DNA from: Microbacteriaceae bacterium
GTDB lineage: Bacteria > Actinomycetota > Actinomycetes > Actinomycetales > Microbacteriaceae
Direction: 5' to 3'
Length of the DNA stretch: 64,000 nucleotides
Assembly: GCA_031177985.1 (NCBI GenBank)
Contig: JAPSJW010000002.1
Coordinates: forward strand, 124,001-188,000
Below the pieces are notes generated by a model, which saw only the letters and a program-made list of their open reading frames with translations, was not told where the DNA came from and did not search any database. Numbering within the stretch: position 1 is the first letter of the stretch; each line of letters begins with the position of its first letter. Below are positions 53,230 to 55,397 of this stretch, piece after piece. Made by a program: the position numbers and the translations under genes.

Positions 53230-53577
53230 TCAGGGCACGAGCACCTTCGCGAGCGCTTCGAGGGACCCGGGCACGAGGGTGTACCAGGCCCAGGTGCCGC
53301 GCTTCTCGCGGACGAGGAAACCCGCCTCGACGAGCTGCTTGAGGTGATGCGAGACGGTCGGCTGGCTCAGCTCGAGCGCGTCCACCAGGTCGCAGACGCA
53401 GGCCTCGGACTCCGGTGAGGCGGCGATCAGCGAGATGACCCTCAGCCGGGCGGGATCCGCGAGCACCTTGAGAGCCCTCGCGAGGGTCTCCGCGTCCGGG
53501 GCGCTCAGCGCCCCCTGGGTGATCGGAGTGCAGTACTCCGCGACATCGCGCAGGGGGAGCAGTACGGGCGTGGACAT
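53230..53577 (-). CDS. arsR: ArsR-type arsenic-responsive repressor
   Basis: A 115-residue winged-helix repressor. ALKVLADPARLRVISLIAAS is the first helix pair, SEACVCDLVDALELSQPTVS then HHLKQLVEAGFLVREKRGTW the recognition helix and wing. Cys60 and Cys62 (ACVC) are the classical metal pair; Cys15 in AEYC could be the third ligand, as in the Corynebacterium-type ArsR where an N-terminal Cys takes part. The start is ATG with TATACT (53589-53584) six nt upstream, which overlaps a 20-bp palindrome, so it is autorepressed. Divergent from the rest of the ars locus. Confidence 0.93.
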   Translation of the reverse strand: MSTPVLLPLRDVAEYCTPITQGALSAPDAETLARALKVLADPARLRVISLIAASPESEACVCDLVDALELSQPTVSHHLKQLVEAGFLVREKRGTWAWYTLVPGSLEALAKVLVP

Positions 53578-53586
53578 CTTGGCAGT

Positions 53587-53606
53587 ATATCGACGCAAAT
53601 CGATAT
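53587..53606. promoter_or_regulatory. ArsR operator ATATCGA-N6-TCGATAT
   Basis: A perfect 7-6-7 inverted repeat overlapping the arsR -10 (minus strand) and abutting the -35 TTGACG of the divergent ars genes. Two CATCGATG palindromes at 53614-53621 and 53647-53654 could be extra half-sites. Confidence 0.8.
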
Positions 53607-53635
53607 TGACGAGCATCGATGCGATCCGCCATACT
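53606..53635 (+). promoter_or_regulatory. Promoter of the rightward ars genes
   Basis: TTGACG (53606-53611), an 18-nt spacer and CATACT (53630-53635). Transcription would start near 53642, giving a leader of about 25 nt that carries AAGGAGG before the small Cys-containing gene. Confidence 0.65.
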
Positions 53636-53665
53636 CCATCGACAGACATCGATGAAGGAGGTCGG

Positions 53666-53854
53666 ATGCTTCCCGCCAGCCCCGAATACGTCCTGCGAGC
53701 CCACGCGATCGAGTCCGCGATCGCCCGCACCGAGCGCGCCCGCCGCCGCCCCGCGGCCCTCGAGTCGGAGCCGCCCGCGCCTTCTCGACGCACGCTTCCC
53801 GTCGTCTCGCTCTGTGCCGGAATGGTGCCCGCTGCAGGTCCGTCGTGCTGCTGA
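53666..53854 (+). CDS. Small protein with C-terminal Cys-Cys in the ars locus
   Basis: A 62-residue protein whose start is backed by a strong AAGGAGG SD and which overlaps the flavoprotein gene by 10 nt, so it is translated as the first gene of the ars transcript. The N-terminal 35 residues form a basic amphipathic helix (EYVLRAHAIESAIARTERARRR), the middle is Pro-rich, and the end LCAGMVPAAGPSCC holds three cysteines (C50, C61, C62). I know no family for it. Cys residues and context suggest As(III) or thiol chemistry, for instance a metallochaperone-like donor, but this is inference. Confidence 0.65.
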   Translation: MLPASPEYVLRAHAIESAIARTERARRRPAALESEPPAPSRRTLPVVSLCAGMVPAAGPSCC

Positions 53855-54996
53855 GCGGAAGCGCGCCGGTCGCCGTCATCGGCGCGGGGCCCATCGGTCT
53901 CGCGGCCGCGGCGCGGCTCGCCGCGTCGCAGACACCCTTCGTCCTGCTCGAGGCCGGTCCCCGCGCGGCGGCCTCGGTCGCGGCGTGGTCGCACGTGCGG
54001 ATGTTCTCGCCCTGGTCGGAGGTCGTGGACGAGATCGCGGCCGCAGCCCTCCGCGACTCGGGCTGGATCGAGCCCGACCGGAAGGAGCTGCCGACCGGCG
54101 GCGAACTGGTGGCCCGCTACCTGCAGCCCCTCGCCGAGCTTCCGCAGCTGGCGCCCCGCATCCGCTACGACGCCCGGGTGGTGTCGGTGTCGCGGAGTCC
54201 GCAGGGGTTCGACCTCGAACTCGCGACCGGCGAGGTCGTGAACGCCTCCCTGGTGCTCGACTGCTCGGGGACCTTCGCCACGCCGGTCCCGCCGCCCGCA
54301 GGCGCCCGGGAGCTCGCGGACCGCGTCGGCGGCGCCGTCCCCGACGTGCTGGGTGCCGATCGCGAGCGCTTCGCCGACCGGCACACCGCCGTCGTCGGCG
54401 CCGGCCACTCCGCTGCGCAGGCGCTGCTCGCCCTCGTGGCGCTGCGCGCGGCGCATCCGTCGACGAGGGCGACATGGGTGCTGCGCCGCGCCGACGCTGC
54501 TCGGCTGAAGCCCGACGGTGACGACGCGGTGTCGGCGCGCGTCGCGCTCGAACGGAGGCTGGAGGCCGCCGTCGACGCCGCGGACATCGACGTCGTCCGG
54601 GGATTCGCGATCGGCTCGATGCGGGCGGACGGCGACGGTGTCGCGATGGTCGCCGCGGACGGTGGCGAACTGGTCGCCGATCGCGTCGTGCTCGCGACGG
54701 GGTTCGCTCCCGACCTGCGGATGCTCGACGCCCTCGCCCTCGACCTCGACCCGGTGCTCGAGTGCCCGCGCCTCCTGGCGCCGATCATCGATCCCACGAT
54801 CCACACCTGCGGCACCGTCGCGCGCCACGGAGCCGAGGTGCTGCGTCACCCGGAACCAGGGCTCTGGGTGCTCGGCATGAAGAGCTACGGCCGCGCGCCG
54901 TCGTTCCTGCTGAGCACCGGCTACGGCCAGCTCGACTCGGTCCTCGCGCAGTCGTCCACTCACCGGCCCGTTCCGGCAGGTACTCTCGTCCCGTGA
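53845..54996 (+). CDS. Ars-locus NAD(P)/FAD flavoprotein (ArsO-like)
   Basis: A 383-residue flavin oxidoreductase. The FAD site PVAVIGAGPIGLAAAARLA, an NADPH site HTAVVGAGHSAAQALLALVA in the middle, and LATGFAPDLRMLDAL near the end follow the flavin-monooxygenase/ThiF-free trimethylamine oxidase-like layout seen in flavoproteins of actinobacterial ars operons. The start is GTG, inside the end of the small Cys gene. Its TGA overlaps the arsC GTG (GTGA). Its chemistry in arsenic metabolism is not established. Confidence 0.85.
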   Translation: MLLSGSAPVAVIGAGPIGLAAAARLAASQTPFVLLEAGPRAAASVAAWSHVRMFSPWSEVVDEIAAAALRDSGWIEPDRKELPTGGELVARYLQPLAELPQLAPRIRYDARVVSVSRSPQGFDLELATGEVVNASLVLDCSGTFATPVPPPAGARELADRVGGAVPDVLGADRERFADRHTAVVGAGHSAAQALLALVALRAAHPSTRATWVLRRADAARLKPDGDDAVSARVALERRLEAAVDAADIDVVRGFAIGSMRADGDGVAMVAADGGELVADRVVLATGFAPDLRMLDALALDLDPVLECPRLLAPIIDPTIHTCGTVARHGAEVLRHPEPGLWVLGMKSYGRAPSFLLSTGYGQLDSVLAQSSTHRPVPAGTLVP

Positions 54997-55397
54997 CCGA
55001 GCGCCCCACCGTCCTCTTCGTCTGCGTCCACAATGCCGGGCGCTCCCAGATGGCCGCCGGCTATCTCCGCCACCTGGCAGGCGACCGCGTCGAGGTGCTC
55101 TCGGCCGGATCCGAGCCGAAGGACGCCATCAACGCCGTCGCCGTCGAGGCGATGGCCGAGGAGGGCATCGACATCGCGGGCAGCACGCCGAAGGTGCTGA
55201 CCGTGGATGCGGTGCGCGAGTCGGATGTCGTCATCACGATGGGCTGCGGCGACGCCTGCCCGATCTTCCCGGGCAAGCGCTACGAGGACTGGACCCTCGA
55301 CGACCCGGCCGGGCAGCCCCTCGAGGCGGTCCGCCCGATCCGGGACGACATCCGTCGGCGGGTGGAATCGCTCCTGGAGGAGATCCTCCCGGCCTGA
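54993..55397 (+). CDS. arsC: Arsenate reductase, low-molecular-weight phosphatase fold
   Basis: A 134-residue arsenate reductase of the LMW-PTPase/thioredoxin- or mycothiol-linked type. The P-loop is CVHNAGRS (Cys11) and the shuttle cysteines are likely C85 and C89 in MGCGDACPIF; the WTLDDPAG segment supplies the Asp. TACTCT (54981-54986) six nt before the GTG hints at an extra internal leaderless promoter besides coupling to the flavoprotein gene. No arsB or acr3 follows. Confidence 0.95.
   Translation: MTERPTVLFVCVHNAGRSQMAAGYLRHLAGDRVEVLSAGSEPKDAINAVAVEAMAEEGIDIAGSTPKVLTVDAVRESDVVITMGCGDACPIFPGKRYEDWTLDDPAGQPLEAVRPIRDDIRRRVESLLEEILPA

Follow-up and report, generated by a model that had tools for sequence, protein, structure and literature searches.

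A candidate ArsR-controlled microprotein ending in Cys-Cys in an arsenic resistance locus of a Microbacteriaceae bacterium

Introduction

A short, unannotated open reading frame (ORF) separates a divergent arsR gene from genes for an ArsO-like flavoprotein and an arsenate reductase in a bacterium of the Microbacteriaceae, and its deduced product ends in two adjacent cysteines. Is this ORF a gene and, if so, what could such a protein do in arsenic defence? We examined it in a window of 64,000 nt, the whole stretch of DNA that was analyzed, and searched for counterparts in other genomes. The relevant features of the window are:

53230..53577, reverse strand: divergent ArsR-family repressor (HTH_5; the nearest NCBIfam entry is the Rv2640c family, below its cut-off)
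53599..53622, no strand: first ATCGAT-type inverted repeat, overlapping the -35 hexamer, a likely ArsR operator judging from its sequence
53606..53635, forward strand: sigma-70-type promoter TTGACG-18-CATACT, from a promoter scan
53637..53654, no strand: second repeat, ATCGAC...ATCGATG, downstream of the -10 hexamer, also a likely ArsR operator
53655..53662, forward strand: Shine-Dalgarno (SD) sequence of the microprotein, AAGGAGGT, an 8-base match 3 nt upstream of the ATG
53666..53854, forward strand: microprotein ORF, 62 residues, with an N-terminal helix and a C-terminal Cys-Cys (from sequence, models and counterparts)
53845..54996, forward strand: FAD/NAD(P)-dependent oxidoreductase, ArsO-like (Pyr_redox_3)
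54993..55397, forward strand: ArsC, arsenate reductase of the low-molecular-weight phosphatase type (domain match; GTG start at 54993)

Organization of the locus

The ORF runs from an ATG at 53666 to the end of a TGA at 53854, and its product, MLPASPEYVLRAHAIESAIARTERARRRPAALESEPPAPSRRTLPVVSLCAGMVPAAGPSCC, contains cysteines at residues 50, 61 and 62. The original prediction had described a frame of 62 residues that overlaps the flavoprotein gene by 10 nt and ends in GPSCC, with a third cysteine 11 residues earlier, and all of this was confirmed in the sequence; its proposal of a basic helix also agrees with AlphaFold2 models which, without and with a five-row alignment, predicted a high-confidence helix (residues 6–27) followed by a disordered tail. 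The protein matched no known domain in Pfam or NCBIfam, and the ArsD profiles of both collections matched neither it nor any of the counterparts described below.

The promoter hexamers TTGACG and CATACT sit between the two ATCGAT-type repeats, and the 501-base region contained three promoter-like sites, against a mean of 0.1 after shuffling. The first ORF behind this ArsR-divergent promoter is that of the microprotein, which occupies a slot of 267 nt from arsR (scanned as 53236–53577) to the flavoprotein start; we infer that it is translated. Since the flavoprotein gene, starting at GTG 53845 within the ORF, is preceded by a weak SD match of only 4 bases and arsC (scanned as 54996–55394) overlaps the flavoprotein gene by 4 nt, translation of the three genes appears to be coupled. 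The flavoprotein scored 56.9 bits with the NCBIfam ArsO equivalog, far under the cut-off of 425, and we therefore limit its name to ArsO-like; among solved structures, entries 4usr and 4usq are the closest to it in sequence.

We also considered a chaperone for an arsenite pump. Neither Acr3 (TIGR00832) nor ArsB (PF02040) had a match in the genome that contains the window, which is 99.5 % complete (controls were positive in 7/14 and 6/14), and a chaperone for either pump was thus rejected for this genome.

Counterparts in other Microbacteriaceae

The flavoprotein is present in 151 of the 398 genomes of the family. Besides the window, we examined the best 89 loci by score from these 151 genomes, and 65 of them have a divergent arsR upstream of the flavoprotein. 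The gap between both genes is only 75–178 nt in 48 of these, and in another 16 arsC lies in between, with 68–133 nt separating it from arsR, so that 64 of the 65 loci have no room for such an ORF. In 16 ORF-less loci with promoters that were inspected (L106 among them having no TTGAC match), the spacing between promoter and flavoprotein start is close to that between promoter and small ORF elsewhere. The one locus with a larger gap (L042, 287 nt) contains an ORF of 56 codons, preceded by the SD TAAGGAG, with the C-terminus VCATC and touching the flavoprotein ATG.

A search with the L042 protein in 27 genomes of a genus yielded a third member, L131, with 49 residues and the ending ELACC; it lies between arsR and the flavoprotein gene, and its stop codon precedes the next ATG. 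A profile made from the window, L042 and L131 identified two further clean matches in the 398 family genomes, L135 (6e-9) and L136 (4e-6), both directly behind a divergent arsR. L135 has 55 residues, ends in PACC and is followed after 172 nt by arsC, and L136 has 54 residues, ends in MACC and is followed by a VOC/glyoxalase-like gene, named by eye from its sequence; neither ArsC nor the flavoprotein was detected near L136. Among the 50 loci from profile searches (L132–L181), only L135 and L136 (identical to L151) have an arsR within ca. 1.5 kb. The three-member profile found no convincing member in 396 genomes of the order. The five-member profile added no convincing one in the class (197 genomes), in two genera (3 and 8 genomes) or in the 398 family genomes themselves, and helix-type proteins gave nothing convincing against plasmid and viral sequences. 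The family is therefore sparse, with members in 4/398 family genomes plus L131 from the genus search; the genus of the window is represented by a single genome.

The five loci share a layout in which TTGAC lies 60–78 nt upstream of the start codon, surrounded by ATCGAT-type repeats, and the divergent arsR is the only gene besides the small ORF common to all of them. The four counterparts, each from another species of the family and defined, like the window ORF, as the first ORF behind an ArsR-divergent promoter, end in CC in three cases (L131, L135 and L136) and in CATC in one (L042); a third cysteine occurs only in the window and in L136. The SD match spans 8 bases in the window, 7 in L042, 6 in L131 and 4 in both L135 and L136. 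Terminal CC is rare, ending 32 of 8335 stop-terminated frames of at least 30 codons (0.4 %) in the set of sequences searched for this, a count in which loci overlap and the members themselves are included. Two of 122 distinct ORFs of 40–80 codons with an SD match of at least 6 bases end in CC, and these are the window ORF and its L131 counterpart, L135 and L136 being below the SD limit and L042 having the CATC ending.

At three loci, the window, L042 and L136, the end of the ORF overlaps the start of the following gene or abuts it. The Cys-Cys is nevertheless not forced by this overlap, because the L131 stop codon precedes the next ATG and the next gene in L135 is 172 nt away, which rules out an overlap artefact as the whole explanation. 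The neighboring gene also varies: it is the flavoprotein gene for two of the counterparts, arsC for one and the VOC/glyoxalase-like gene for one; in the window, as in L042 and L131, arsC comes after the flavoprotein gene. L135, followed by arsC, and L136, followed by the VOC-like gene, led us to reject an exclusive flavoprotein partner and make a fixed partnership of the microprotein with this enzyme unlikely. Given the variation of the next gene among loci, the task that the microproteins have in common probably concerns As(III) itself or ArsR and not a single enzyme.

The ArsR of the window (53230–53577, reverse strand) has a single cysteine (EYCTP) where those of L131 and L135 have CC, together with a CVC motif. 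Because of this replacement, its metalloid site may differ from theirs.

Sequence kinship and selection

We evaluated the kinship of the five proteins with leave-one-out models ranked against 11016 frames, a test set enriched for chance profile matches, which makes the ranks stricter. With full-length models L042, L131, L135 and L136 each ranked 1; with the last five training residues removed, the first three still ranked 1 and L136 ranked 3. Since each of the four is recovered at rank 1, at the sequence level they form a real family, L136 less firmly, as it falls to rank 5 once the window protein leaves the training set. The helix pattern of these four, [NS]-P-x3-L-x2-H-x2-E, is not strict even among them (L131 has no His, and L135 neither Pro nor Leu).

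The window protein was not matched by the full-length model of the other four and ranked 484 when the last 5 residues were removed. In a phmmer search with it, L136 alone preceded the bulk of the noise, at rank 13. Identity to the window over 19 residues of the helix region is 5 for L042, 5 for L131, 3 for L135 and 7 for L136; the last value was reached by 1 of 20000 shuffles, L136 having originally been found by a profile that contained the window protein. The original prediction had made conservation of the C-terminal cysteines in neighboring species decisive, and the outcome was positive: four other species have a small ORF in the same slot, with three CC endings and one CATC. The prediction as a whole is supported in part, being weakened by the failure of their model to retrieve the window ORF. 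The kinship of the window copy, an outlier, thus rests mainly on position and build, that is, on its place behind the promoter, SD, size, helix-tail architecture and terminal CC, together with the weak helix similarity.

Nucleotide comparisons of codons 2–20, based on small counts, gave pS 0.67 and pN 0.21 for L042/L135, and pS 0.68 and pN 0.28 for L042/L131. With pN below pS among L042, L131 and L135, these counts suggest purifying selection on their N-terminal helix region; pairs with the window (pN 0.53–0.68) are too diverged to judge selection.

Cysteine-rich ORFs in other loci

Among seven flavoprotein matches on plasmids, five are on ars plasmids of Arthrobacter/Paenarthrobacter, and all five of these loci have an ORF of 12–20 codons between trxB and the gene for the ArsO-like flavoprotein:

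L187, 2257–2316: microORF
L188, 2253–2315: microORF
L189, 2278–2316: microORF
L190, 2262–2315: microORF
L191, 2255–2317: microORF

The deduced peptides, MTNGCCGDSGCCDDDQDCC and variants, contain two or three Cys-Cys pairs, all end in CC, and differ in ORF length by multiples of three. None of the five has its own gene in the records, illustrating that microproteins this small can escape annotation, and the TC1 record starts the flavoprotein approximately there, far upstream of the others. A strong hairpin lies 3′ of the microORF in the four of the five that were folded (z -3.2 to -6.2). These microORFs are unrelated to the helix-tail microproteins. According to annotation only, arsR and the flavoprotein gene are 92 nt apart in the Herbiconiux plasmid match, and the preceding gene overlaps the flavoprotein gene in that from Pseudomonas.

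Two peptides of 21 residues with 8 cysteines and a strong SD were seen in L059 (1250–1315, forward strand; MDTCCDGSCCTGACADGCTCC) and in L183, the extended L131 locus (reverse strand from 8717; MAECCNASCCTADCVDGCTCC). Both follow the end of an ArsR-family gene whose product has a Cys-rich C-terminus and is CmtR-like by eye, and each is a possible mini-metallothionein. Downstream of the flavoprotein gene, L182 (5564–6478) and L183 (6227–7177) encode long proteins that, as read by eye, join an ArsR domain to one resembling ArsC, and ArsR-ArsC fusions are mentioned for Microbacterium (PMC6205960).

Alternative explanations

The arrangement of the ORF raises the possibility of a cysteine-responsive leader, in which arsenite would deplete cysteine or thiols, ribosomes would slow at the terminal Cys codons and translation of the overlapping flavoprotein gene would change, the peptide itself being inert. 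The two contiguous Cys codons of the window ORF lie within the 10-nt overlap with the next gene; four of the five ORFs have two such codons immediately ahead of the stop, the following gene begins within or close behind the ORF at four of the five loci, and the SD of the next gene is weak or absent in the window, L042 and L136. In mycobacteria, moreover, contiguous-Cys leaderless upstream ORFs mediate attenuation in response to cysteine (Canestrari et al., 2020, cited in PMC9031893). The window ORF is, however, SD-led rather than leaderless, as far as the transcript start can be placed from the promoter, and 49–62 residues are long for a leader peptide; the N-terminal protein sequence is also conserved, with pN below pS, among L042, L131 and L135. 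RNA folding gave nothing unusual around the overlap in the window (z 0.9) or for the gap of L135 (z -0.5), where the next gene is also distant. For the helix-tail ORFs we rank a leader second, less likely than the carrier proposed below but still a serious rival; the hairpins that follow the Arthrobacter-type microORFs make this reading stronger there. A chance ORF in a GC-rich leader, whose final TGC TGC would simply follow from the GTG CTG CTG of the overlapping start, would be compatible with the contact between the last codons and the next start in three loci and with the failure of the other four to recover the window peptide, but it is very unlikely in view of the 8-base SD, the homologous ORFs filling the same slot elsewhere, and a Cys-Cys that is kept in L131 and L135 free of overlap and ends just 0.4 % of frames.

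If the protein is real, its tail could also act in ways other than carrying As(III). In a thiol redox shuttle, the terminal Cys-Cys would cycle between dithiol and disulfide and relay electrons between ArsC and a reductase, either the thioredoxin/mycoredoxin system or the flavoprotein. Similar CC tails occur in flavoprotein disulfide reductases, but adjacent cysteines form strained disulfides. The proximity of arsC, next gene in L135 and downstream of the flavoprotein gene in three other loci, fits this role, as does the gene for a DUF2703 protein with CXXC that precedes arsO in Rhodococcus (PMC6514093). Nevertheless, L136 has neither enzyme detected nearby, the disulfide reductase activity of the ArsO-like protein is only putative and the peptide is absent from most close loci that encode these enzymes, all of which makes a shuttle, the third-ranked reading, improbable. 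The peptide might instead bind ArsR, or take As(III) from it, and reset repression, as an ArsD-like second repressor; the divergent arsR is the sole companion gene common to the five loci and the basic tail could touch DNA, yet 64 of the related loci examined have a divergent arsR and manage without the peptide, and such feedback has little chance of being the explanation.

Proposed function

The ArsR control, the position of the ORF and the thiol tail all suggest a link to arsenite, and the reading that we prefer, tentatively and at just short of an even chance, is that of an ArsR-induced mini carrier or buffer of As(III), formed by a docking helix and a vicinal-thiol tail. Arsenite would release ArsR and lead to synthesis of a small cytoplasmic protein; with its ORF the first to be translated and overlapping the next start, it would be produced along with the enzymes. 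The predicted helix at residues 6–27 has a conserved face (9, 10, 13 and 16) that would serve for docking, and the rest of the protein would be a flexible Pro/Ala/Arg-rich tail with the thiol pair at its end. The terminal Cys-Cys would capture As(III) coming from ArsC or entering the cell, Cys50 being a possible third thiolate. The helix would then deliver As(III) to an acceptor or keep it off other thiols. As(III) binding and a docking partner are both putative, and so are the roles that the original prediction had suggested, hand-off to another protein or protection of the thiols of ArsC or the flavoprotein. Several points speak against a carrier, namely the sparseness of the family, the failure of the other four to retrieve the window protein, the variable next gene and the lack of an Acr3 or ArsB match in this genome that would offer an acceptor. 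A pair of thiols should also hold As(III) more weakly than a set of three, and a third cysteine is confined to the window and L136.

As similarly built small proteins share the slot in four other species, the microprotein is probably an unrecognized part of some bacterial arsenic defences. A broader proposal, possible but held more loosely, is that actinobacterial ars operons carry overlooked ArsR-induced microproteins ending in vicinal cysteines, invented more than once (the helix-tail and the all-Cys Arthrobacter type) to serve as expendable As(III) carriers supplying or shielding ars enzymes. If it binds As(III), the protein would be a minimal metalloid carrier, a possible biosensor part and a handle on the movement of As(III) between cytosolic proteins, in a bacterium where neither Acr3 nor ArsB was found. 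If the ORF encodes a leader peptide instead, cysteine-coupled attenuation would extend to arsenic defence.

Comparison with known systems

The original prediction knew of no such component in described ars systems, and we likewise found no description of an ars-operon microprotein with a C-terminal Cys-Cys in the titles and abstract openings covered by our literature search, most subscription journals being outside this coverage. ArsD has a thioredoxin-like fold, whereas the microprotein is predicted to be one helix and a tail. Both are small ars-operon proteins with vicinal cysteine pairs, and the R773-type ArsD has Cys119-Cys120 in its C-terminal region, but ArsD differs in its essential N-terminal site, Cys12-Cys13-Cys18, and in working with ArsA (PMC4562236). 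The role proposed for the tail resembles that of the C-terminal cysteine pair of MerA, which passes Hg(II), a soft metal, to the active site (PMC4500099), although that pair belongs to the enzyme itself and the microprotein is a separate protein. The mycobacterial polycysteine upstream ORFs are likewise short, contain contiguous Cys codons and lie upstream of an operon (PMC9031893), whereas the window ORF is SD-led, longer and belongs to proteins conserved outside the Cys codons. In Rhodococcus aetherivorans BCP1, a gene for a thioredoxin-like DUF2703 protein immediately precedes that of an ArsO-type flavoprotein in one operon; this protein has a thioredoxin fold with CXXC, instead of a helix with a terminal CC (PMC6514093). 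With this DUF2703-arsO pair and the Arthrobacter microORFs joining the case of the window, thiol-bearing small proteins have been repeatedly placed before an ArsO-type flavoprotein.
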